A DNA stretch of 64,000 nt from Mugil cephalus (taxonomy: Eukaryota; Chordata; Actinopteri; Mugiliformes; Mugilidae). The notes below the pieces were generated by a model, which saw nothing but the letters and a program-made list of their open reading frames with translations, had not been told where the DNA came from and made no database searches. The DNA lies in NCBI RefSeq assembly GCF_022458985.1, contig NC_061772.1:3335501-3399500 (forward strand), written 5' to 3'. Positions 40,326-63,659 of this stretch are shown here, one piece after another (positions within the stretch are counted from its first letter, which is position 1; each line of letters opens with the position of its first letter). Both the position numbers and the translations under genes were made by a program.

Positions 40326-46332
<6,007 letters not shown>

Positions 46333-47998: not shown

Positions 47999-50332
47999 TC
48001 AGCGTCTCCTGCGCCTCTTTGGTGCAGATGTTGCCCCCGGCACACATTCTGTTGGGCTGCAGCTGCAGGTCTCCACTGAAGTGTAGCTGTGCTGGACCGT
48101 GGTTCCATCAGCGCAGGTCAGCTCTACTTGCTTCTGACTGGTGGTGGCCTCCCGGCAACACTCACACTGGTGTATCATGCTGTTGGCAGCGGCAGAATAT
48201 CTATATAGACAAAGACACAAAGACAGCTTTTATCTTCGCAACTGGTCGCGACAACAGTGGAAGTACATAAATGAGGAGTTTCAAGTCGCGTTAACATTTG
48301 AACATTTATTCCATATTGCGCTCTTACGGTTCTTCTTGCTTATCAAAATTCCTCAGCCAATTTCAAACTGGATGATCATTCTTATGGAAGCCTAGTGTTC
48401 ATAGTATGGTTTGACCTGATCAGCCTAATATCATCAGTCCACTGGTTTTCTGCCAACTGACACTATCCCTAGCCATATGGATGGTAGCAGAGTGCTGTAT
48501 CTTGTTCACAGGTAAGAAAGCTGAATTTCACCTGAGATGACTAAAACTACTGTGAAAGCTAGTGTTAAAAAAGTGTTCTTCCCTTCCTGATTTTTTTGTG
48601 TGCTCGAGTCGTCACACTTAAATGTTTCAGATCATCAAACAAATTTAAATTTTAGTCAAAGATAACAGAAGTAAACATAAAATTCAGTTCTTAAATGAAG
48701 GTTTTTATTATTAAGGGAAAACTAAATCCAAACCTACATGGTCCTGTGTGAAAAAAGTGATTGCCTCCTAAACCTAATAACTTGTTGTTTCATCCTTCGC
48801 AGCAACAACTGTAATCATGCGTTTGCAATAACTTTCAATTAGTCTTTTCCAGCACTGTAGAGGAATTATTTCCCACTCATCTTTACAGAATTGTTGTAAT
48901 TCAGGCTCATTGGAGGGGTTTCCAGCATGAACAAACTTTTTAAGGTCATGCCACAGGACCCAGGTCAGGACTTTGACTAGGCCACTCCCAAGTCTTCATT
49001 TAGTCTTTCTTCAGCCACTCAGAGGTGGACTTGCTGGTGTGTTTTGAATCAATATGCTGCCACAGAACCCAAGTTCTCTTCAGCTTGAAGCGATGAACAG
49101 ATTGCTGGATATTCTCCTTCAGGAATTGTTTCGGTAGACACTAGAATTCATGGTTCCATTTATCACAGCAAGTCTTCCAGGTCTTGAAGCGGCAAAACAG
49201 CCCCAGACCATCACACTACCACCACCAGATTTTACTCCAGGTATGGTGTTCTTTTTCTGAAACGTTGTGTTACGTTTACACCAGATGTAAAATGATGTCC
49301 ACAGAGTATTTTCCCAAGGGTCCCAAAGATCATCAAGATGTTTTATCTGGCAAAACTGAGATGAGATTTTATGTTCTATTTGCTCAGCAGTCTTGAATTC
49401 TGCCATGCAGGCCATTTTAACCCAGTCTATTTCTTATGATGGATTCAAGAACACTGAGACCTCTTGGGTGAGTTGTCAGAGAAGGTTCACCACGGTTCCA
49501 CGTTTTCTCCATTTGTGGATAATGGCTCTCATTGGGGTTCACTGGAGTGCGAAACCTTTAGAAATGGGTTTCTAACCTTATGCAGACTGAATTACTTTCT
49601 CATTTGTTCCTGAATATCTTTGGATCTTTGCATGACATCTAGCTTTTGAGGATCTTTTTTTCTACTTCTCTTTGTCAGGCAGATCCCATTTAAATGATTT
49701 CTTGATAGAGAACAGGTGTGGCTAGAGAAATTGAACTCAAGTGTGATAAACTACAATTTATGTTTTAACAGGGGGAACAACCACTTTTTCACACAGGGCC
49801 ATATAGGTTTGGATTTTTTCCCTTTAATAATAAAAACCTTAAAAACTGTATTTTGTGTTTAATTGTGTTACTTTGTCTTCTATTTAAATTTGTTTGATGA
49901 TCTGAAACATTTAAGTGTGACAAAATTGCAAAAACTAGGAAATCAGGAAGGGGCAATTCCTACAACACTTTTTCACAACACTGTATACAATATATTTCTT
50001 ATTTATATTTGTATTTCAAATGTGATGCTACATAGACTCACATGGACGAGCTCCCACAGTGCCCAGCACAGGATGTTATGTTGACCGGTTGTAGGCTCTT
50101 GCAGTTGTTCACATCGATGACCGTCTGCGTACTCTGGACCTCACAGACACTCTTTACCTTACCTGGAACACACGACAGCTGTTACACACCGACACAGGCA
50201 TACACACACACACTAACGCTTTACCGAACTGAACTTTCCATTCTTAAAAATTATTCATGTCCTAGGATTTAGCCATTGTTCATATAACTTACAGGATTTG
50301 CAGCATCCGTTAGCATCAGTTGTTTCAGTACC
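47999..50332 (-). CDS. Mucin exons: C-terminal cystine knot (CTCK) with poly-arginine end
   Basis: Exons 50332-50293, 50162-50042 and 48200-47999. The translation contains CKVKSVCEVQSTQTVIDVNN, then CAGHCGSSSIYSAAANSM, then IHQCECCREATTSQKQVELT and HSYTSVETCSCSPTEC: the cysteine spacing and the C-x-C-C motif of the CTCK domain that forms the disulfide dimer of MUC2, MUC5AC, MUC5B and VWF. The chain ends APKRRRRR followed by TGA; human MUC2 also ends basic (RRARRS) but continues further. Confidence 0.92.
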
Positions 50333-53300
50333 CTGGAGGAAGAGGACATGTTTAAAGTTGAGTGTTAGATTATGGTCAGTGGACCTGCTGTTGTCTGTGG
50401 AGATTTGATAAACTCACAGGTTCACAATCCAAGGGGTTAAAAGCAGGACAAGAAGTCTTTGTTTCCTTGGTGACAGGCAGTCCACCAATCTTCTCACAAG
50501 TATATTCCACACATCTGTCGCCAGGGTCTATATATGTGCTGTTGACCTGTACCAACATGGGCAGAGTTACGTTAGCTATTCATCAAACATAAAATGATAC
50601 ATCTTACAAACACAGCATGCCTGAATACCATTAGTAGATAAAGTCAGCCAGAATAAACTAGAACACCTTGATGCGGCTATGAATAATACGTTCTTGTACT
50701 TTATACCTTTTTAAAATGTTCATTCATGTTTCTTATGAGCTTTGAATCAAATGACATGTTTAATTGCAGATCATATGCCTTTTCTAAATGCCTTGGCTGT
50801 TGTGAGGTAAAATGCAGCTGCAGTACTGACCTCAATATATATTGTCCCATTGTTAGGTGAGGAGAAAATACAGCTCTTCTGAACACACATCCCACAGCAC
50901 TTGTCAGGCACAGTCTGGTACTCATAACCCTGCAGGGCAAGAGACGGGGAAAATTATAACAATAAAAACAACTTTGTTGGCTTGAAAGGAAATGAGTATC
51001 AACACTTGAGCATGCTGGAATGTGTTGCATAAATGTATATCTCCTTAATGTGAATGTGGATTTATCTTTTTCTTGTTTTCAAACTGTATTATTGTCACCT
51101 GATCCTTCACATCACACATGAGCCCAGCAATCGGGGTTAGCTTGAACAGTCTTCCAAATCAGAGGCCACTAAGGCTCCCTGTATCCTCAACGTGCAGGTT
51201 TGTTCCCAGAGTGACGCTTAAGGGTATTTGCCAGATGTGTGTGTGTGTGTTGCTTACTTCAGAGCAGTTTGTGTTGCAGACCACAGGTTTGCAGGTAATG
51301 ATGTTCAGCTGAGTGACAGGATCGACTTTGGGGCCACAGTAACATTCCTGGCAGGGCCCAGGTTTGAAAGTCTCCCCTGATGTAAATCCCACTGTTGTTT
51401 CTGAAAGTTGTTCTGATCCCAATGGTGCTGTTGTTGTTTTTGAAGGTTGTCCCGCTCCTGATGGTGCTGCTGTTGTTGTTGTTGTTTTTGAAGGTTGTTC
51501 CACTCCTGATGGTGCTGTTGTTGTTGTTGTTGTTTTTGAAGGTTGTTCCACTCCTGATGGTGCTGTTGTTGTTGTTGTTTTTGAAGGTTGTTCCACTCCT
51601 GATGGTGCTGTTGTTGTTTCTGACGGTTGTCCTGATCCTGATGGTGCTGTTGTTGTTGTTGTTTTTGAAGGTTGTTCCACTCCTGATGGTGTTGTTGTTG
51701 TTGTTGTTTCTGACGGTTGTCCCGCTCCTGATGGTGCTGCTGTAGTTGTTGTTGTTTCTGATGGTTGTCCTGCTCCTGATGGTGCTGCTGTTGTTGTTGT
51801 TGCTTTTGAAGGTTGTTCCACTCCTGATGGTGCTGTTGTTGTTGTTGTTTTTGACGGTTGTCCCGCTCCTGATGGTGTTGTTGTTGTTGTTGTTTCTGAC
51901 GGTTGTCCCGCTCCTGATGGTGCTGTTGTTGTTGTTTCTGACGGTTGTCCCGCTCCTGATGGTGCTGCTGTTGTTGTTGTTGCTTTTGAAGGTTGTTCCA
52001 CTCCTGATGGTGTTGTTGTTGTTGTTGTTTCTGACGGTTGTCCCGCTCCTGATGGTGCTGCTGTTGTTGTTGTTGTTTCTGACGGTTGTCCTGCTCCTGA
52101 TGGTGCTGCTGTTGTTGTTGTTGCTTTTGAAGGTTGTTCCACTCCTGATGGTGCTGTTGTTGTTGTTGTTTTTGACGGTTGTCCCGCTCCTGATGGTGTT
52201 GTTGTTGTTGTTGTTTCTGACGGTTGTCCTGCTCCTGATGGTGCTGCTGCTGTTGTTGTTGCTTTTGAAGGTTTTTCCACTCCTGATGGTTCTGTTGTTG
52301 TTGTTGTTTTTGACGGTTGTCCCGCTCCTGATGGTGCTGTTGTTGTTGTTTCTGACGGTTGTCCCGCTCCTGATGGTGCTGTTGTTGTTGTTTCTGACGG
52401 TTGTCCCACTCCTGATGGTGCTTTTGTTGTTTTTCTTGTTGTTTCTGACGGTTGTCCCGCTCCTGATGGTGGTGCTGTTGTTGTTGTTGTTTCTGACGGT
52501 TGTTCCACTCCTGATGGTGCTGCTGTTGTTGTTTCTGACGGTTGTCCCGCTCCTGATGGTGCTGTTGTTGTTTTTCTTGTTGTTTCTGATGGTTGTTCCA
52601 CTCCTGATGGTGCTGTTGTTGTTTTTCTTGTTGTTTCTGACGGTTGTCCCGCTCCTGAGGGTCCTGCTGTTGTTGTTTCTGATGGTTGTCCCGCTCCCAA
52701 TGGTGCTGTTGTTGTTGTTGTTTCTGATGGTTGTTCCGCTCCTGATGGTGCTGTTGTTGTTTTTCTTGTTGTTTCTGACGGTTGTTGCACTCCTGATGGT
52801 GCTGTTGTTGTTTTTCTTGTTGTTTCTGACGGTTGTGCCGCTCCTGAGGGTGCTGCTGTTGTTGTTTCTGATGGTTGTCCCGCTCCCGATGGTGCTGTTG
52901 TTGTTGTTGTTGTTTCTGATGGTTGTTCCACTCCTGATTGTGCTGTTGTTGTTGTTCTTGTTGTTTTTGATGGTTGTCCCGCTCCTGAGGGTGCTGCTGT
53001 TGCTGTTTCTGATGGTTGTCCCGCTCCCGATGGTGCTGTCGTTGTTGTTGTTGTTTCTGATGGTTGTTCCGCTCCTGATGGTGCTGTTGTTGTTTTTCTT
53101 GTTGTTTCTGATGGTTGTCCCGCTCCTGATGGTGCTGTTTGTTGTTTTCTTGTTGTTTCTGACGGTTGTTCCACTCCTGATGGTGCTGTTGTTGTTTTTG
53201 TTGTTGTTTCTGATGGTTGTCCCGCTCCCGATGGTGCTGTTGTTGTTGTTGTTGTTTCTGATGGTTGTTCCGCTCCTGATGGTGCTGTTGTTGTTTTTCT

Positions 53301-55066
53301 TGTTGTTTCTGATGGTTGTCCCGCTCCTGAGGGTGCTGCTGTTGTTGTTTCTGATGGTTGTCCCGCTCCTGATGGTGCTGTTGTTGTTTTTCTTGTTGTT
53401 TCTGATGGTTGTCCCGCTCCTGAGGGTGCTGCTGTTGTTGTTTCTGATGGTTGTCCCGCTCCTGATGGTGCTGTCGTTGTTGTTGTTGTTTCTGATGGTT
53501 GTTCCGCTCCTGATGGTGCTGTTGTTGTTTTTCTTGTTGTTTCTGATGGTTGTCCCGCTCCTGATGGTGCTGTTGTTGTTTTTCTTGTTGTTTCTGACGA
53601 TTGTTCCACTCCTGATGGTGCTGTTGTTGTTGTTGTTGTTGTTTCTGATGGTTGTCCCGCTCCTGATGGTGCTGTTGTTGTTTTTCTTGTTGTTTCTGAC
53701 GGTTGTCCCACTCCTGATGGTGCTGTTGTTGTTTTTGTTGTTGTTTCTGATGGTTGTCCCGCTCCCGATGGTGCTGTTGTTGTTGTTGTTGTTTCTGATG
53801 GTTGTTCCGCTCCCGATGGTGTTATCATTGTTGGCGGTTGTCCCGCTCCTAATGGTGCTGTTGTTGCTTCTGTTTTAATCGGTGTTTCTATTGGTGGTTC
53901 TGATGTTGTATCTGTTGTTGGTATCTTGGCACCAGGCTATAAAATTATATACATTCAATGTTATGATTATAATTAATACTCCCAAGCATCAATATCCGTA
54001 TTTTAAAAACAATTAATTTCTTCTGAGGGCAGGAACACTTAGATACATTGGTGTCTTGTAGCCTTGAGTGGCCCTAACTGTGCAAACATAGCTGGAGGTG
54101 TCACACTGGCTGACAAGTAACTAATTATGGACAATATTTCAGTTATTCTGTGCCATCAACACTTAACGCTACAGTATAGTTTATTCTGATCAGTGACTGT
54201 AGGTCAAACAGCAACTCACAAACATTCATGTAATCATACCTAATGTTCTGGCATAATTATGTCACCCATATAGATGCAGGGAGCCAGAGTTGCTGCCTAT
54301 ATGCTTACCTTGTACTCAGTCATGTTGTAGACACAGACACCTTTAGGAACTGCAGAGGCAAAAGAAAGAGACATGACTAAAGTTACCACTGTTTGAATTA
54401 ATAAAGAGATGTGTTCTAAGATCCTCTGTTAGTGTACCTTTAGACATCATTGTTTAGAAAAGCCCTTAACACAAGTTAGTTTTAATTTTCTACGAACCCT
54501 GGACAAAATCTGAATTACTTTCATTTTCTTTTTTGTGTTCTTCTGACGACTCTACACAGCAGGATTAGGATTGTTTCCGAGCTACCTTACCATAAATAGA
54601 AATTTCTTTGTATAATTCTATGCACGTTTGTGATGTTGCTTATACTTTGGGTCATATGTAAAGCTATTTTTTCTAACCGGGAAGAGGAGCTTGATGGACT
54701 GAGATAAATGTTACAACACTTGATAACACGTGATAAGTTCCCTCGGGACATATGCAGTGCTTCTTATCTCAGCACATACAAGTAGATAGGATAGGTTAAT
54801 AGTCACGTACCACACTCATAGGACTGGCAGCAGATACCGTTGGTGATGTTAAGTTGGAAGCCCAACGAGCAGTTGGAAGAAGAAGGACAAGTGTTTCTAT
54901 TGCACTCTAAATAGGAGAAAAATATGAGGTGATTATCAGCATACATATATGGAGGTTTTCCCTTCAGTATTAATAATTTAAAGAACCTATCTATTGCAAG
55001 GTGTCAAGAGACTTAATTGAGGAGTTACTGTTTAATGGTCTTGTAGTAGTTGTAGTTGTAGTTGTT

Positions 55067-55097
<31 letters not shown>

Positions 55098-58000
55098 CAG
55101 TAGTGCCAAGCACCAGGATTAACTCAGGGTTCAATGTCCTGCTCTAGAACACTTCAGCAGTACATGGCCCATGTACTGGGGATCAAACCCTGTGGTTGGT
55201 GGACTAACTTTGTAAATTGATAAATTCATCAGGCTAGAATGGTTTGAAAAGACAGACGAGGGAAAGCAGCAAGCTTGGTTTTCCTCTGCCTTTCTCTGAG
55301 CTTGTCTGTAGCTTTTTGACAGCAGATAGAAGGAAAGCATGTCAGCAAGATGGAAGAACTTTTTTCTTAAATAAATGGTTTAATAATTTTGAGAAATACT
55401 TTTGTGGCAGAAATCCCATTGCTGAGTTTTTTTTCACATTATTAAAATACATCATATACAGTGTGCTGAATCTGATTGTGTCTTCTGTCACTGGTCCCAG
55501 CTCACCACATAATTGTGTTGTGCAGCAGCCTTCTGTTTTGTTGACCAGCTCGTAGCCAGGAGTGCTGCAGGTTGGGACTGATGCTGATGTTGGGCATTCC
55601 ACAGGCCGACACACGATGCCCATGGAATCCACGTCACACGTGCAGTTCTCACAGTTACTTTCCCACGTGTCACCAGGCTGGTTAAGAGAAAGCAGTCATT
55701 TCAGACACACGACTCACGCTTTATTAGCATATATGTGCATGGATATACTGTCAGGAATGGCTCTCACATTTTTGGGATCCCCATCGGGTCCAACACATTC
55801 TGAAATTCAAACACACACAGTACTTGTACATATCTGCATAGATGTGACAGCTAATGTTTTTCTGGCAAAATATTTCCTGTATATAATATATGACTCAGTA
55901 GATCTTGTCTTACCACAGTCAGGAACACATGTCTTATAGACTGTGTTGAATAAGGTGGTGCCCTCTGGACAGAAGCAACCCTCCGTGGTGTTGCTAGTAG
56001 ATCCATCTTCCTCTGTCTGGAACTTCTGGTTGTATCTGAAGTGAAAAATGGAAGAAGAAGTAATATATCTTTATCTTTCTAATCAAGACTTGTGATAGTC
56101 TTGTGTTAAATGATTCACTGATCAAAGCTTGTTTAATGCCAAACATCCATTCAATCTTAGGGGCATTTTACATGTTATAAGTTGATGCTTCATCTACAAC
56201 AGATGGAACAATACAAATGGAAAACATTACACTCCCGAGAAACACTTCACCTGTTGTTACATGTGGGCTCTACAGAGGGGCCACAGGCTCGGTACACTTT
56301 GTTGCCTTGACACTTGTGTTCTGTAAAATGAAAAGAAAAAAAGATTTAGGTATATTAAGTATTTAAGTATATTAAAATGCTTAGCACTCTATAGTATAAT
56401 CTGCATATCTCACCACACAGCCCATCAGTATAATTCCTCCAGTCAATGCAGACTCCTTCAAGAGAGCACTCAGTGGCATAGGCCTCCAAGCTGGAGCAGG
56501 TTTTATTGTTACCGTTGCAAATATCGTCCCTACATGATGTCACAAATCGTCCAGGGGGTATGATCGAGTGGCATGGTGCAAATACACTAGATGGGGGACA
56601 GTATATCAGGAAAATGATCAGAGAACTTTCCACAAACAGTGTTTGAACACAAAAGCTACACTTATTGTGTTCATCACAAACTGGTGCAAAATTCATGCTG
56701 TTCCAGCATAAAATGCTCTGTTGTGTGTTGGTAAATTTATGGAACTGTCCTTTTATGAAAGAAAGAAGAACAGAAAGACAGGTTTTTGACTATATTGTGG
56801 TTCCTTCTACCTTTCCATTAGGAGATCACAGATGGGAGGTTTGCAAGGGGGCTGCGTTGTGTATGGTTCTGTAGTGGTCGTGGATACTGTTGTAGTTGTG
56901 GTGGTAGTGGTGGTGGTAGGGGTGGTGGTAGGGGTGACAGCACATGGTATATCAAGGACTTTCCACTGACTTGCAGAATCCGAGCAGCTTTCCACCTGGC
57001 CATTTGGAGAACGGCAGTCATTGGTCTGGGAGTTGTCACAGGTCCCTGGAAAAGGAGAGGAAACAGAATTAAACCAGAGCAATGTAACTCATGCTAGAAC
57101 CAGCTCTGCTCTGAACTGATTTAAGCGTCTTGAGACGATTTGTATTGTTATTGGCGCTATATAAATAAAACTGAAATGAATTGAACTGATTTGTTGCTAA
57201 GAAATACATAAGCTTAATGGAATTTGTGGCTTTCAACCATTTCCTTTAGAATTTAGGTTGTGCTTTAAGGTATGAATTAAATCCACATCTACAAATCAAT
57301 ATTCCTTCCCATGGGGGAAAACATATCGACTTTACTTTCAAAAACATACCATTCAAAAACGTAAGAACCCCCAAAACCTGAAGGATTATACAGCTATCAC
57401 TATCATACTTCTAGGTTGAAGAAAAATTAACAGAAATTCAAAATTTGAAAATAAACTGTACTGCTCCGAAAGACTTGCAGAAGGCAGGACAGTATCACTA
57501 TATTTATTAGTATAGACAGAGAGATGGAAGTGAAGACTTTATGCTGTAAATCCTCAACAAGCTCCATCCCATGATTAAAAAACACATAAAAAGTGCACTA
57601 TGATAAAAATAATTAAATGCCTTTACAGACCTGGGAATCTCGATTTTGGTTCATTTAGAACAGGCATGTCAAACTCAGTTTGGCTCTGGGGCCGGATCCA
57701 GACTTTCTGTTCTCAGGTGGGCCGGATCAGTAAAAGAATGTCAACTCCAAATATTTAGCTTTGTTTTTCAGTACTATGCTTTATCATTCAGCCTACATTT
57801 GTAGCCTACCCTACATATTATAATCACGGATGACAAGGGATCTTTTCTAAGCACAACACATTTATTCAAAAACAATGGGAAAAAAATGATTTTTCATGTT
57901 TGGCCGTGAATGTGTTAACAACTGGTTTATTTTAACAGTTGAGTGAATGCAGTTTTACACCTGAACCAACTCACCACACTAAACAAACTCAAGTGGGAGC

Positions 58001-61000
58001 TATGAAAAAAAATATTTTCGCCCTTATTGTCATACTGCTTTGAAATAAATGAAAAAAGAAATACAAAATAAAATAAAATAAATAAATAAGTTATAGTAGT
58101 GCATGGGCGATAGGATTAGACTACATCAGATCAAACTACTAGGCTGGGCCTACTGAAGTTGAGAATATACTGCACAATATTAATTGTCTTTAATATGACA
58201 TACTTGTCTTTATGATGAGTGGCGCCGAATATTAAACTCTTTGAACACTGCAACTTGCTGATTACATACCAAGCACACTGTTTTTGCATGCACTTCTGTG
58301 AATAAATACTTCTCGGTCCATTTCTCCTGGAAAACTCTGCACTCCGTGTCCACTCTTCTTTTTTTTGACAGTGCCATTTTGGGAAGGGTGTGTTGACCGA
58401 TAACTTGTTTAGTAGTGGTGAATGGTGAAGCAAGATTGCCGGTTTATTTTTACTTGGACGCATCACGTTGCGAATGTTTATTTCCTGTGACTAACTCGTG
58501 TCAGTGCCGCATGCTTGACGTGAGCGCTTTTACACATTTACTGCCCTCTAGCGGCCGGAGGGAGCATTTGGTTTGTATTTATTTTAAAAAATAACAACTT
58601 TTAATAGAAATTAGCTAGAGACTCGCTTCTTTTTTTGACATACTCAGAAATTTATGCCGGGCCGGATTAAATGATCCAACGGGCCGGGTCCGGCCCGCGG
58701 GCCGTATGTTTGACATGCCTGATTTAGAACGATACGATCCGAGACGATTCAGTAACTTGAAACCGATTCAGTAACCTTTTAGCCAAAAAATAAACTAGTG
58801 TGACTGAAATAAATACCTACTCAGTGTTTTCTCTACATTCATTTAGGAGTGGTGGGCCGCCAACAGATAATATAATGCTCAGTATCTACTCTTTGGGGTT
58901 CTTAATCTACAGGTCCTCTTTTAAACTTCCTCAAGTGTTTATCAATAAAGAACGAGGTTATTATAGCTCAGAAGTTTAACACCACATGACCGACGCTGCA
59001 CGTTGAATTATTCAACGTTTCATCGAGTTGTTTTCTTTTTGCTCACGTCACTGTGTGTGGGACGAGTCGGAGAGGCGAGGCGATGTGAAGGCGAATGTTA
59101 GCATTAGCATATACATTCATTTTGCCATTAATGTTAGCCGTAAGCTAACGCATATTTGTATAACAGTGTTTTCGGTATATAAAACTAATTTGTAAATTTA
59201 GTTTGTCCAGTTTTACAGTGTTTCTCAAGTAAATACTCTAAGCGGATCCTCTGACATCATAATCCAACGCCTAATCTCCTAGTATCGATACAATCGATTG
59301 ATTGCCTTTTAAATCAATATTAGATCGATGTATGTCGCCCGGAAGGCCAACTTGCCGAGCACAGATCGATGTAGTTGGATCGTAGGAAAATAAATCGATT
59401 TATCGATGTAGTGGATGAATCGTTACACCCCTACTGTTTAATGTAAGAATATTCAGTATCAGGTAATCTGCAGCTATCATGCGTGGAGGTAAATTCATTC
59501 TGCTGTTTGGGTGTCATGCTGCTGCGCAAACAATCTAAATTAACAGTGTAACTGGCAACACAAAAATATGAGTTATCTGGAAGCACATAAGGGATGGGCA
59601 AAGAGTCTTGAAGAGAGGTAGGTGCAAGTGGAAGCTCTGAAATGGCGCCTGGTTAGAAGTGACAGTCAAATATTTCTCCCACTCTATCGTTTGGTTTACT
59701 AACTCATTAGGGTTTATTGTAAAGATCAGCGAGGTAAGTATTTTGGTAACTCACCACACTGTCCTTCTGTGTTTCCCCCGAAGAGGGAATTAGGAATGCT
59801 GATGGTAAATGAGGTGCCCCTGTAGATCACTTTTGTGCTGATCTCGGGTATCTCCAATGTAATCAACATATCTGTACTAGTGAGGCGCAGGACATCGTTG
59901 CTATAGGCAGGATAGATACGTTTCTGATTCACGTACGCCTGTAGGACAAGGAGACAATAGACATTAGAGAACCTAACAAAGCACCAGTTATGATACTATG
60001 TATGATACTACATGCGATGAGATAATGACACTAAAACGGCTTTTTGTTTTTCTCACTCTGAGCCACTGCTTACCGCATTGGTGATTCCTGAAACCGCCAG
60101 TTGGGTCAAGATTACCTCGAAGGATTGGTATGTTACATTGAGAGCTTGGGGACAGAATGTGCTGTCTAACGGGTCGCAGTAATGATTGTTTACTATTATT
60201 GTCAGATTATATTTTCTGATAATCTCTTTGACCAAGTAGTAAGTGCAGGTCTCATTGAAAGTATATGAGCTTCCATCAAATGTCATGTAGTGGGATCCAC
60301 CCCAGACAGCACAAACACCTGTAGGATGAGAACGACATAAGTATAAAAATGAAAGGAGCTGACAGAGAGCAACTACCATTTTCATACACCCTTTTTATGT
60401 GTGGCCTGCATTTTTAATTCACAGTGCAACAATGATTTATTTAATGAACAGTAGAGACACTAACACAGTGAAGTCATGTTATCACACATTTTTCGACTTA
60501 CATTCACACTCGTACTGGAAGCAACAGCCGTCATCATCATAGACCTTGACAACTTTGTGTCCATTGGCGCAGATAGGTTGAGGAGGCGTGGTACAGGGAC
60601 TACGTGCCACTGTGATATTGCCATTGATGCATGTAGCTGTGGTGCAGTTGCCATTGTTCCAGGACTGTCCATTCTAAATAGGGTTTAAAAAGCAAGCCAG
60701 TCAACTGGTGAATCTTTACATTACTGGATATACTAATAATCCAGCAGTGACAATGTGTACAATTACATCATTATTTGCGGCATTATAAATCTCTGAAAAG
60801 CAAGATTCTGCAGTTACATAATGTGTCATCATAACAGTGCCTTACTGTACTGTCCAGTTTGAAAGTTTGAACATTGAATGAGCGTTTTGTTTAAAATCTA
60901 AAAAATAAAACGTGAGCTTTTCAGTTAGGCACATTTAGGTTTGAAACACAATCTCTGTCACATCATGTAGCTCATCTGTGTATAGACAGACTGGAAGAGA

Positions 61001-63659
61001 GTTTAACGATCAGCAGAGAAGAGTGAATGTTTAAATGGTGATTTCTGGGTTAAATTTACAGTTTGTGGTGTTTCAACAAAATGTAATTAGAAGGTCTGCA
61101 TGTGAATTTGTGCTCTGACAGTGTGCACAATCATTTTAACAGAGACCGTTCCACGAACAGATGCTTTAAGATGAAGAGTGAATAAACTATCTGACGTAGA
61201 TGACAAATTCCTCTGATTGTCTCTTCTTTTTTCTATAGGATCACATCAGCTAACCCTTACCCTCACCTAAAATGGGCTTTGTTTGATTTTGTCTTTTTTG
61301 TGTGATGCTTGATTTCTACTATACTGGGTGGCATCACTAAATAAAGATCTAAACAAACTGATACATTGGCATTGGGATGTGGAGAGAATAAGTGTATTCA
61401 TTTTAAATATATCTTACCTTTCTTGATGGATCCACATCTGTGCAGTCCAGGTTAGTTGTAGATGAAGGGGAAGTAGAGGTGGGAATAGATGTGGTCGGAG
61501 GAACTGAGCTTGAAACTGTGGCCTTTGTGGTACTGAACGTTGTAGTAATAGTGGGTGTTGGTGTTGTGGGACATGGACTGGATTGTGTTTCAACTTTACA
61601 AGATGCATTGCAATATGCAACGTAACACCAGCCTAAACCATCAGTGGCGTTGTACACCAAGTCCCCTGTAAAAACAGATGATTGGTAATGGTTAAGTGCA
61701 CAAAATTAAACTCATACTGACACAGAAACATTTTTATTTTAAGGTTCCATATTACATATTATATTATATATTTATATATTTTTGAAGTAACTGCCATACA
61801 TTCCCTGGATGGCTCTTGTTTAAGATACAAGATACAAAATACAAAGCACAGAATCATTTCATTCTATGCAACTGCTTTCAGTCCTGTTCCAATTAACTAT
61901 TTCAGTGTCTCCAGCTAACAACACAAATGAGCTGCTGTTGGCAACAAAACACACTTGCTGAGGACTTGCTGAGGTAATGCTTGTCCTCTTATGACTTCTA
62001 TGCAGATCTAATTGGCTTGTTCTGATTCACTCTTTTTTTAATCAACTGAGAAAAGAAAGTGAAGAAAGGATAATATTTTTCCAAATTCTGTGTGCCTCCA
62101 GACACACTGTAGGCCTATAAAATATTACTTTAGTGAGGAACAGCTGTGAAAACCCATAGTAATCTACCCTAGCAAAAAAAATGTATATTTTTTGTTATAA
62201 ATCACCTGACTTGAAAATTGTAAATATAGTTACTTTCTTAATGAATGTACAGTATTTTATTAGATAATAATATGTCAATGATTTATTAAAAGTCTTCAAC
62301 TTTATTTTATTTATTTGTTTGATTTATGCTCACTTGCCAAATCATTAGGTACACTAGTGAGAACAAGTGCAGTCCTGCACTAAATCTTAACTTCATCAAG
62401 GTTATGGTAGTCAGCTTTTGTTTTAAGTAAGTGAGAGAGATGTTGATTCAACTATGTTGTCATTTTGAAGTCTGCATTGTACTGTGTTTTACTGACACAT
62501 GTTTTTATTATTTGTATAGAATACTCAATGTGTCGCAATGTTTACAATAAAAGCCCTTAGCTAAAAGTTAAAATTCATTAAACTCAGACCCAGACAGTTC
62601 TTGATGTTAACGTTTTTGTCATGCAGAGGGCAGTAGCAGGACCAGAAGTTCAAACCTGCCAAAAACCTGAGTATGAATGGTGACCCTCTACAAACAGGTG
62701 AGTTTCCAATAACAATCAGTACAAGTCACAATCATATTCTGTGTTTGTTAATTAATGACAGAATATAGTGACATATTGCCTGATCATACTTAATAAAGAC
62801 AATTATAGTAGTATCATTTGATAAAACTTCAAATTTGAGATGTGTTTTTCTCATTCATGGCTAGCATGTTAAAATATGTCATCATTACGTCTAAGTAATG
62901 ACTTTAATAAGAAAATTTTCTATTATGTTTTGGTAGGTAGTTGTCAATTTATACATAAATGATTATTCAACAGATCAATTAACTGAAAAAAAATACAACT
63001 CTTTTGCACATCAATCCTAATTTATAATTTCAAAAAATCAGTTACTGCATTATTACTATTTTATGTAAGATTCTGAGTGAATTGGCATTGTCGATAACAT
63101 AACGGAGTATGAGGCACAATTTAGTACAACTGAAATACAAGATACAAATGGTTAGGTATAGGAAGACCATCTGAAGAAAGCAATCATGAATGACATCATC
63201 ATTTCAAATTATGAATTTTTTGGTATCTCCTACTGTCTCCTACTCTAGTATTTCAGAAAAATATTCAGGGATTAAGAAATATTTTCTTAACTGTTACTAC
63301 TGCAGTTAAGTGGTACTGTATGTTAAGTTGACTGTATGAATTATATGTAAATGTTTTTACTACAATAATGACAAAAAACCAAGCTGCACATGTATAGCAG
63401 GAATAAAATAGAAAAATCACTCACAAATGTATTTATCCTTGAATATACAAAAAAGAAAGAAAAATATGTTAGATGCTAAGATAAAAACAATGATCTAGAA
63501 AGTAAAAAAATAAATGAATAAACAGGAATATATTTGTTGAAGCAGAAAATAACAGTAAATAAATAATAAGTAAATAAAAAAAACAACCTACCAGGATGAA
63601 GTGAAGTTCCGTTGACAGTACAGACACATAATGTTAAGTGTGAAAAAAAGTGGTGAAAC
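47999..63659 (-). CDS. Secreted gel-forming mucin (MUC2/MUC5-type), C-terminal region; 5' part outside window
   Basis: Exons in transcript order: 63659-63592, 61665-61418, 60673-60502, 60318-60074, 59938-59755, 57045-56811, 56586-56414, 56320-56251, 56035-55914, 55799-55768, 55677-55506, 54906-54811, 54349-54309, 53936-51258, 50929-50831, 50546-50418, 50332-50293, 50162-50042 and 48200-47999. Phases agree at every junction from 61665 to the TGA, giving about 1,685 residues. The order of end-of-PTS segment, VWD (D4), C8/TIL, VWC and CTCK aligns exon by exon with human MUC2. These proteins are secreted, dimerise by the cystine knot, and form mucus gels. Conserved Cys and many N-x-S/T sites are visible. 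Position next to tollip suggests a MUC5-like orthologue, but sequence looks equally MUC2-like, so no symbol is given. VWD domains 1-3 and the main PTS region should lie beyond 64000. Confidence 0.93.
48558..49985 (-). mobile_element. Tc1-like transposon with both long inverted repeats, transposase broken
   Basis: Both ends carry inverted repeats of about 200 bp: left 48560-48770, right about 49765-49985, sharing for example 'cacacttaaatgtttcagatcatcaaac' and its reverse. The ends begin near GTGTT(A/G)..AAAAGTGTT. Between them, on the - strand, lies a decayed transposase gene; the longest open piece (49415-49119) includes WDPWENTLWT and GGGSVMVWGCFAASRPGRLA. Frameshifts and stops break the rest. 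It sits in the intron between the last two mucin exons and is the most complete transposon here. Confidence 0.9.
50418..50929 (-). CDS. Mucin exons: final VWC-like module
   Basis: Exons 50929-50831 and 50546-50418. They read GYEYQTVPDKCCGMCVQKSC, then NNGTIYIE, and after the intron VNSTYIDPGDRCVEYTCEKI through CPAFNPLDCEP. This corresponds to the MUC2 stretch GFELMEAPGECCKKCEQTHC and the following C-rich segment. It follows the PTS exon directly and supplies the last part of the VWC repeats before the cystine knot. Confidence 0.88.
51258..53936 (-). CDS. Mucin giant exon: about 52 T/P/S-rich tandem repeats inside a VWC module
   Basis: One 2,679-bp exon (893 codons, phase 0 both ends) after an attttatag acceptor. 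It starts PGAKIPTTDTTSEPPIETPI, continues with about 52 copies of a 12-17-residue unit A-P-S-G-(A/V)-(G/E)-Q-P-S-(E/K)-T-T-(T/R-K)-T-n, and ends TFKPGPCQECYCGPKVDPVT through CNTNCSE. Thr, Ser and Pro dominate, as expected for dense O-glycosylation. The preceding exon ends KGVCVYNMTEYK and the array is followed by the module's remaining cysteines, so the array interrupts one VWC domain. The N-terminal copies often carry R-K (TTRKTTT); the C-terminal third does not. No stop or frameshift is present. The repeat is also open on the + strand, which is an artefact. Confidence 0.93.
54309..55799 (-). CDS. Mucin exons: VWC modules preceding the PTS array
   Basis: Exons 55799-55768 (ECVGPDGDPKN), 55677-55506 (PGDTWESNCENCTCDVDSMG through EGCCTTQLC), 54906-54811 (ECNRNTCPSSSNCSLGFQLN through GICCQSYEC) and 54349-54309 (VPKGVCVYNMTEYK). 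They follow human MUC2 segments GCVGPDNVPREFGEHFEFDC and CKCNTSLCKEKPSVCPLGFE in order. The last 41-bp exon starts the VWC module that the giant exon interrupts. Confidence 0.9.
55030..55097. repeat. (TAG)n-type microsatellite
   Basis: Runs of GTAGTAGTAG with a few interruptions in a mucin intron. Confidence 0.85.
55914..57045 (-). CDS. Mucin exons: end of D4, C8 and TIL region with a small Thr-rich insert
   Basis: Exons 57045-56811, 56586-56414, 56320-56251 and 56035-55914. They read GTCDNSQTNDCRSPNGQVES, then a Thr run (TPTTTPTTTTTTTTTTVSTT), then PPCKPPICDLL; next FAPCHSIIPPGRFVTSCRDD and CSLEGVCIDWRNYTDGLC (C8 domain); then KVYRACGPSVEPTC and EGCFCPEGTTLFNTVYKTCV (TIL). The order equals MUC2 after D4. 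The Thr run sits where MUC2 has a short Ser/Thr/Pro linker. Confidence 0.9.
57105..57185 (+). repeat. Dispersed fish repeat tail
   Basis: 'aagcgtcttgagacgatttgtattgttattggcgctatataaataaaactgaaatgaattga' matches the common 3' tail of teleost retroposons ending in a degenerate (gaatt)n. Located in a mucin intron. Confidence 0.5.
57625..59434. repeat. Older repeat interrupted by the hAT insertion
   Basis: Text before the hAT ('gggaatctcgattttggttcatttagaa') and after it ('atttagaacgatacgatccgagacgattcag') reads on as one sequence typical of a teleost DNA repeat with 'aatctcgatt...cgatacgatcc' ends. The right part closes with 'gaatcgttacacccctac' at about 59434. Outer limits and superfamily are uncertain. 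Confidence 0.45.
57661..58721 (-). mobile_element. hAT-superfamily deletion derivative with 8-bp target duplication
   Basis: The 1,061-bp element begins CAGGCATGTCAAAC and ends in the reverse complement of the same 14 bases. It is flanked on both sides by the identical octamer ATTTAGAA (57653-57660 and 58722-58729), the 8-bp duplication expected of hAT elements. On the - strand near 58376-58190 it encodes the start of a hAT-type transposase (MALSKKRRVDTECRVFQEKW, then FTEVHAKTVCLVCNQQVAVF), resembling GTF2IRD2/EPM2AIP1-like BED proteins. A stop follows after RRHSS and the remaining catalytic part is missing. Located in a mucin intron. Confidence 0.88.
59755..60318 (-). CDS. Mucin exons: VWD (D4) domain lacking the GDPH motif
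   Basis: Exons 60318-60074 and 59938-59755. The first starts VCAVWGGSHYMTFDGSSYTF and continues to NHYCDPLDSTFCPQALNVTY; the second has ISTKVIYRGTSFTISIPNSL and ends FGGNTEGQCG. This is a von Willebrand type D domain matching MUC2 D4, where the start reads CTGWGDPHYVTFDG. Here G-G-S-H replaces G-D-P-H. Confidence 0.93.
60502..60673 (-). CDS. Mucin exon: Cys-rich segment before D4
   Basis: The exon reads NGQSWNNGNCTTATCINGNI, then VARSPCTTPPQPICANGHKV and VKVYDDDGCCFQYECE. It corresponds to MUC2 ENETWWLCDCFMATCKYNNT through DPDGCCWHWECDC. Phase 0 entry and a one-base exit match the next exon. Confidence 0.92.
61418..61665 (-). CDS. Mucin exon: Cys-rich segment with short PTS linker
   Basis: The exon reads DLVYNATDGLGWCYVAYCNA then SCKVETQSSPCPTTPTPTIT, a Ser/Thr/Pro-rich linker, and NLDCTDVDPSRK. 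It aligns with MUC2 EEVYNGTYGDTCYFVNCSLS and its following PTS-like linker ending ECPDFDPPRQ. It is preceded by the candidate exon at 63592-63659. Confidence 0.9.
61666..63591. other. Mucin intron without recognisable genes
   Basis: AT-rich DNA with no supported ORF, RNA gene or identified transposon, between the exon at 61665 and the one at 63592. Confidence 0.6.
63592..63659 (-). CDS. Mucin exon, left-most readable (upper boundary uncertain)
   Basis: On the - strand LCVCTVNGTSLHPG is followed by the donor G|gtaggttg; joined to the next exon it gives HPGDLVYNATDG, in frame. It resembles MUC2 LICCVLNDTYYAPGEEVYN. The 5' boundary is placed at the nearest upstream AG (63660/63661) but the pyrimidine tract there is weak, so the exon may be longer or differently bordered. 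Confidence 0.6.

Follow-up and report, generated by a model that had tools for sequence, protein, structure and literature searches.

In the stretch of the Mugil cephalus genome analysed here (the window, 64,000 nucleotides at C3:3335501-3399500, with no N among its letters), the minus strand carries what reads as part of a MUC2-type gel-forming mucin, its C-terminal half, and one predicted exon of it holds a very long tandem array rich in proline, threonine and serine (PTS) inside the von Willebrand C module VWC3. The gene model has 18 exons between 61665 and 47999; their acceptors are AG, and the 17 exons that possess a donor all have GT. A D4 assembly (VWD, C8, TIL), then VWC modules and a C-terminal cystine knot are present in it; in Pfam the VWD and C8 domains score above cut-off, and TIL and VWC below. 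With the array removed the product aligns over its residues 70-835, almost end to end, with the human MUC2 C-terminus (7qcu) at 533.9 bits, the best chains that are not MUC2 being FCGBP (183) and MUC5AC (138.8). Since the cysteine C4379 in the human sense is absent, its position being Gly in the window, the gene is filed as MUC2-type only. Module names follow PMC10082768, and the array site falls in VWC3, the N-leaf of which forms a dimer interface in human MUC2. The features that bear directly on the array are as follows.

54309..54349, minus strand: exon E12, predicted; VPKGVCVYNMTEYK; contains VWC3 C1
51258..53936, minus strand: exon E13, predicted; PGA, the PTS array and the C-terminal part of VWC3
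51369..53927, minus strand: 853-codon insertion, a cysteine-free PTS tandem array between the C1 and C2 sides of VWC3
51429..53821, minus strand: tandem repeat core, 51 matched units, mostly 13-17 aa
51258..51368, minus strand: 3' part of E13, FKPGPCQECYCGPK...NTNCSE; VWC3 C2-C7
51348..51349, minus strand: candidate cryptic acceptor AG, in phase; its use would cost the array together with VWC3 C2

The predicted exon E13 (53936-51258, 2679 nt) is in phase 0 at both ends, and its donor GTAAGC lies directly after 51258. The first-pass annotation of this DNA had its coordinates exactly, as it had the opening PGAKIP and the single frame running to the FKPGPC side and the remaining cysteines. Read on the minus strand, the E12/E13 boundary is ...GTC TGT GTC TAC AAC ATG ACT GAG TAC AAG, then the intron, then CCT GGT GCC AAG ATA CCA..., and the exit from the array in the 3' part of E13 is ...ACT TTC AAA CCT GGG CCC TGC CAG GAA TGT TAC TGT..., with FKPGPCQECYCGPKVD after the array. 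The insertion between the flanks PGA and FKPGPC measures 853 codons (53927-51369), close to the 840 or so residues first estimated, with an open frame throughout. Tandem Repeats Finder places a repeat at 51429-53821 with a top score of 2722, and the 51 units with a PSGAGQPSETT-like core, mostly 13-17 aa long, all lie in one reading frame. The inserted 853 residues are 30% T, 13% P and 12.5% S and contain no cysteine. Under the PTS-domain definition quoted in PMC5728529 (more than 40% S+T and at least 5% P per 100-aa window), 623 of the 1587 windows of the 1686-aa product qualify, all of them within residues 601-1459; windows within the array range from 37 to 49 in S+T, hence some fall under the threshold.

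Human MUC2 was said to read straight through at this site, and so it does in the 7qcu alignment, as GVCVHGNAEYQPGSPVYSS-KCQDCVC, the array site corresponding to EYQPGSPVYSS-KCQDC. The 18-exon model and this alignment likewise uphold the claim that a PTS array here lies C-terminal to D4/C8, inside a VWC module, in a gel-forming mucin. Outside the insert VWC3 of the window has ten cysteines with VWC spacing, in the order C1 (GVC), array, C2 (GPC), C3 (QEC), C4 (CYC) and C5-C7, with C8-C10 in E14. C1 is thus the sole VWC3 cysteine N-terminal to the array, and the other nine follow in frame.

The open frame is weak evidence of coding, since between 53870 and 51400 three of six frames are free of stops and two others have one or three; as proof of coding it was rejected for that reason. 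The repeat is frame-tolerant, two sense frames there being stop-free and the third sense frame holding the three stops. A stronger argument is that the flanks belong to one phase-consistent 18-exon model. Also counted as stronger is a pair of opposite single-base changes near 53159-53124 that cancel each other, TTRKTTTA becoming TTRKQQTA. Spacing of the units in multiples of three was discarded as coding evidence, because the spacing had been taken from the translation and trinucleotide slippage would produce the same. Counts of synonymous core variants gave no clear sign of purifying selection within the array. Searched against its own genome (635 Mb, 24 contigs), the array DNA has a single full match, and of the 56 weaker matches one falls inside the array itself; the next best has 65% identity and the rest 64-81%, and those above 73% are shorter than 300 bases. 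A dispersed repeat was therefore rejected, there being no second full-length match and the short better matches being explicable by CAA-rich composition. A shift of the exon boundary was rejected as the source of the insertion as well, because an exon of the neighbouring mucin gene starts at the same point (R/VGDQV against K/PGAKI), and with this E12/E13 boundary shared the insert is internal to the exon.

Same-site insertions were surveyed in the best 120 of 208, 47 of 47 and best 120 of 264 matches, together 190 distinct proteins, both VWC3 anchors being present in 162. A tree built from the flanks alone, and partly unresolved, has 84 rows, namely 83 of 138 proteins and the window. Of the 55 proteins left out, 11 are without an anchor, three have a negative gap (P0030, P0040, P0060) and 34 have gaps of 1-3, mostly birds, unnamed contigs and further salmonids. 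The remaining seven have gaps of at least 20: P0047 and P0054 (Dissostichus) and P0126 (Larimichthys) are frame-mixed, P0042, P0075 and P0137 are second records of a tree genus or of a cichlid, and P0103 (Danio, gap 215) was judged to be mis-anchored on another module. A clade of 59 fish rows (SH-aLRT 98) takes in every one of the 56 tree rows whose insertion measures at least 20 aa, and in 17 of the 59 it is at least 100 aa. Centroberyx, with an insert of 4 aa, is the sister row (SH-aLRT 99 for the 60 rows). By taxonomy Centroberyx belongs to the Berycimorphaceae, and Thalassophryne, Knipowitschia and Larimichthys to the Percomorphaceae, as presumably do the remaining clade rows. The 24 rows outside this group of 60 all have a gap of 1-2 residues; they include salmonids, pike, characins, Amia, two birds and a snake, and also paralogues from Anabas, Amphiprion and Centropristis, each of which carries a gene with the insert as well. 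Among the 52 later proteins, 35 have both anchors, each with a gap of 1-2 aa, and 17 lack an anchor; one of them, P0182 of Oryzias sinensis (gap 1-2 aa), may belong to the insert clade as another near-loss. The cross-fish comparison that the first-pass annotation had called for thus finds same-site insertions in one clade and not in the rows beyond it, and the idea of a single lineage's invention gives way to an insertion in one fish MUC2-type gene that is clade-wide and has become long in several lineages.

Parsimony on this partly unresolved tree needs four changes for the presence of the insert and ten for a length of at least 100 aa. The insert starts with KIPT in 36 of the 59 rows; on average it is 30% S+T and 17% P against 18% and 6% in the flanks, and cysteine occurs in just two of the 56. 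A GxGQP-like unit is found in 11 of the 17 long-insert rows, the window included, and is absent from six; units such as APSGGGSPSGTTA (Centropristis), SPTNGFPSSG (Knipowitschia) and the Gly-rich ones of Cynoglossus differ from GAGQPSGTTA of Labrus. On this sharing the growth looks repeated and may partly trace to one ancestral repeat seed. Close relatives differ in length (56 in Etheostoma cragini and 133 in E. spectabile, 43 in Gasterosteus and 92 in Pungitius). Two records of Larimichthys crocea, P0121 and P0126, have inserts of 155 and 774 aa, by assembly error or allele-length polymorphism. After the 853 of the window the longest insert in the 59 tree rows is that of Knipowitschia, 497 aa. 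The window flanks are most identical to Centropristis (74% over 399 columns), the position of the window in the tree being unresolved. Around these varied inserts C1 and C4 are kept in all 59 clade rows and all ten VWC3 cysteines in 58, Gouania being one short.

Quite what such an insertion does to the module depends on its disulfides. In VWC1 of CV2 the printed bonds are Cys9-Cys31 (first to fourth cysteine), 26-60, 29-38, 43-61 and 50-64 (PMC6270503), and from those residue numbers the others are second to eighth, third to fifth, sixth to ninth and seventh to tenth. If VWC3 follows this plan, C1-C4 is the single bond spanning the array and the array becomes a closed loop; C1-C4 pairing is what VWC homology predicts. 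The same source text notes insertions of 2-10 residues in the beta1-beta2 loop of many VWC modules, and by analogy the array site is apparently that loop. An AF2 model of the Etheostoma cragini protein P0006, with its insert of 56 aa, gives the VWC3 flanks pLDDT values of about 82-91 and insert residues 447-495 values below 50, so that the modelled insert is a disordered stretch leaving an otherwise confident VWC3.

The remaining exons of the predicted gene, in gene order, are these.

60502..61665, minus strand: E1 (61665-61418) and E2 (60673-60502), VWCN region and short PTS linker
59755..60318, minus strand: E3 (60318-60074) and E4 (59938-59755), VWD4
56251..57045, minus strand: E5-E7, C8 region, with a small Thr-rich loop in E5 (57045-56811)
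55768..56035, minus strand: E8 (56035-55914) and E9 (55799-55768), TIL to VWC1
55506..55677, minus strand: E10, VWC1
54811..54906, minus strand: E11, VWC' (half module)
50831..50929, minus strand: E14, VWC3 end (C8-C10) and VWC4 start
50418..50546, minus strand: E15, VWC4
50293..50332, minus strand: E16, VWC4 end
50042..50162, minus strand: E17, cystine knot start
47999..48200, minus strand: E18, C-terminal cystine knot and stop codon

In E3 (60318-60074) the self-cleavage motif GDPH of human MUC2 VWD4 reads GGSH in the window; GGSH is the most frequent reading at that site (8 of 42 insert-bearing rows), and none of the eight most frequent readings, which cover 25 of the 42, is GDPH. The C8 region has a Thr-rich tract, CAVTPTTTPTTTTTTTTTTVSTTTTEPYTTQPPC, at 56898-56936 in E5, the place of a short S/T/P loop in human MUC2. 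Of the 57 fish rows covering the C4379 column (42 insert-bearing, of 56, and 15 without), none has Cys there; besides the human one the sole cysteine of the column is that of a bird.

Beyond the window, on the same strand and N-terminal to D4, lies a separate and larger PTS array with a 237-bp unit (C3:3400283-3418072, minus strand, 17,790 bases, about 75 copies by length), its unit different from that of the VWC3 array. It is followed upstream by four VWD exon matches at C3:3421-3435k (minus strand), and because of the two together a conventional main PTS region is very probably in the gene too, the upstream array very probably belonging to the same gene as the mucin exons of the window. In that array the assembly switches frame several times. 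Farther on, the C-terminal exons of a tandem neighbour mucin (near C3:3449-3457k) have a VWC3 exon reading R/VGDQVPMKPCEKC, with no array. This neighbour also has 27 CysD-like motifs of the CxWSxW type at C3:3457450-3471157 (minus strand), nearly identical and mostly spaced at about 474-492 bp. On the other side the mucin gene adjoins an open reading frame (ORF) at 46021-46329 on the plus strand that matches Toll-interacting protein 1wgl (2e-19) and a CUE domain. The known gene order being MUC2-MUC5-TOLLIP, this ORF is in keeping with a syntenic marker of the MUC2/MUC5 cluster. The ORFs at 49122-49433 (minus strand) and 41635-41922 (plus strand) resemble remnants of a Tc1/mariner transposase, Pfam giving no such match, and those near 27-30 kb (plus strand) resemble CELF, Pfam giving nothing on the one tested. 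Pfam was likewise empty for two ORFs within introns, of which one looks Tc1-like. In sea bream Muc2 and Muc2-like are reported to be expressed in intestine, muc2 and muc2a to be among the mucins expressed in gill, and two muc2 genes to lie in tandem (PMC3680472, PMC11035888).

The closest known counterpart is the human MUC2 C-terminus (7qcu/7qcl; PMC10082768), which has the same order VWCN-VWD4-C8-TIL-VWC1-VWC'-VWC3-VWC4-CK, a closely similar cysteine plan, a short S/T/P loop in C8 and an arginine-rich tail; it differs in having no VWC3 insertion, and in having the C4379 disulfide and GDPH where the window has Gly and GGSH. Fish intestinal mucin-like or MUC2-like proteins of Labrus bergylta, Centropristis striata, Knipowitschia caucasica and Larimichthys crocea have inserts at the same VWC3 site, often tandem, which are shorter among the 59 tree rows and of partly different units (the 774-aa insert being in a frame-mixed Larimichthys record outside the tree). 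The tandem neighbour in the same genome shares a similar C-terminus and the E12/E13 boundary, without the array and with its CysD-like motifs in a central region. VWC modules of BMP modulators vary apparently in the same loop, by 2-10 residues and not by hundreds (PMC6270503). In the text, figures excluded, of open-licence literature, nothing was found that describes a PTS array placed after D4 or within a VWC module (literature listings and passages of PMC1552070, PMC5728529, PMC11765562, PMC3680472, PMC11035888, PMC12775068 and PMC11207715), much as the first-pass annotation had supposed. The nearest printed case is PTS3 of human MUC2, likewise an extra small mucin segment in the C-terminal region; it sits in line between PTS2 and VWCN, N-terminal to VWCN, while the array of the window follows D4 and interrupts a VWC module (PMC12775068). 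For sea bream mucins PTS domains are drawn in Figure 1 of PMC3680472, whose text excludes only Muc2-like and Muc19 among the gel-forming ones.

The reading to which we lean, with somewhat more confidence than doubt, is that a MUC2-type VWC3 carries the 853-residue array between C1 and C2 as a likely O-glycosylated side loop closed by C1-C4, and not as a linear spacer. O-glycosylation, inferred from composition, would make the array a stiff bottle-brush; C1-C4 would form as in other VWC modules and load would pass through the disulfide; and the array would project from the stalk at the level where the human VWC3 N-leaves pair. Two such loops per cystine-knot dimer would keep the stalk at a distance from its neighbours, protect it from proteases and alter packing and mesh size. 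In human MUC2 C4379 makes an extra inter-chain disulfide, and the authors who describe it suggest that parts beyond it may be dispensable for holding the polymer (PMC10082768); in the fish rows tested, being without C4379, the looped stalk lies on the sole known C-terminal covalent path, and were C1-C4 to open, that path would gain several hundred residues in length. The insertion probably arose near the percomorph base, at first a short Pro-rich stretch of the loop, and later grew repeatedly by minisatellite expansion, partly from a shared repeat seed.

Several results weigh against this. The Pfam VWC score of the array-removed product is 24.7 bits against a cut-off of 27.6 (14.6 for E13 alone), and the AF2 model of P0006 is modest overall (pLDDT 68.5, pTM 0.31). 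In VWF C2 the counterpart of C1-C4 is reported to be mostly reduced, about 75% (PMC6270503, citing Ganderton et al.), so that loop closure is less certain and yet gating is conceivable. As just this one disulfide would bridge the array, and PTS segments are generally extended, the same observation favours an in-line array, with D4 on one side and the cystine knot on the other, that makes the dimerisation arm longer. Such a long spacer near the dimerisation end, the geometry of the first-pass annotation, seems unlikely: C1 and C4 would be unneeded for an in-line spacer and are kept throughout the clade, AF2 models the VWC3 parts on either side of the insert with confidence, and by the VWC pattern the C1-C4 bond spans the array, which is then a side loop for as long as the bond stays closed. 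A latch in percomorph fish that opens under load or local reduction to free up to about 850 residues in line is a bolder and quite unlikely variant; if true, it would toughen or fluidise mucus, with copy number setting how much length is freed in each species and perhaps in each allele.

A loop of this kind need not have a function of its own. A frame-tolerant minisatellite drifting in length at a permissive site is a possible though doubtful account, compatible with the loop topology and a rival on function, not on structure. In its favour, and also against the favoured reading, distinct core variants are synonymous in 5 of 17 cases against 4.9 expected, with no excess and little sign of constraint at the amino-acid level, and the insert is almost gone from three clade rows (Tetraodon 1, Oryzias javanicus 3, Odontesthes 5), hence dispensable. 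The very different lengths in close relatives and the six long arrays of other units point the same way. Against it stand the raw variant count, which leans slightly to constraint (47 of 106 synonymous against 36.6 expected, the copies not being independent), and the persistence in 56 of 59 rows of an insert of at least 20 aa that is on average rich in S, T and P.

Inclusion of the array in messenger RNA is itself predicted. Among the matches listed, seven cDNA-like ones keep the insert (P0014, P0028, P0037-39, P0055, P0056), with contigs of 1.9-3.3 kb and uninterrupted products of 613-902 aa; such short contigs are taken as cDNA because the C-terminal exons of the gene span 13.7 kb in the window. 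Their inserts are of 28-50 aa only, with nothing comparable for the long array, which counts against the favoured reading as do the signs that the array may be spliced out or skipped, leaving VWC3 truncated or array-free. The acceptor suspected near 51370 has its best candidate at 51348, in phase and with 12 pyrimidines in 20 bases against 11 for E13's own; the Collichthys model P0040 reads TKFK/ECYCGPE, the junction expected from a 51348-type acceptor, the Scomber model P0030 skips E13, and the inserts of Cynoglossus isoforms are of unequal length (144 and 251 aa). Removal nonetheless seems very unlikely. Use of 51348 loses VWC3 C2 and skipping of E13 six cysteines, E13 has no GTRAG donor, the array is 5.7% T on the sense strand, and automatic models of the P0040 and P0030 type may avoid masked repeats. 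The loss of VWC3 cysteines makes the shortened forms likely annotation artefacts. In Genypterus P0060 the portion following the insert is missing. Parts of the array are read in another frame in Dissostichus, Pleuronectes, Sander, Semicossyphus and one Larimichthys record, Q-rich and N-rich frames being mixed within it in models P0031, P0047, P0054, P0123, P0124 and P0126. These mixed frames, and the frame breaks in the main upstream array of the same assembly, are what might suggest a misassembly or pseudogene, which is extremely unlikely given 18 intact exons with one frame through the array, insertions in relatives' records from other genomes, and no other full-length match in the genome.

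Gel-forming mucins are described as having their long glycosylated segments N-terminal to D4 and a folded C-terminal stalk. In the fish clade described here a mucin-like segment lies within a stalk module whose cysteines are retained, and the clade offers, at one fixed site, a natural series of lengths between about 20 and 850 residues. An exon of the E13 type can be mishandled when fish MUC2-type genes are modelled automatically, and such models call for caution. The questions opened are whether the C-terminal stalk bears load without the extra human disulfide, and whether coding minisatellites tune the mechanics of mucus. A sugar-coated, disulfide-closed loop would likely alter the packing and stretching of mucus chains.

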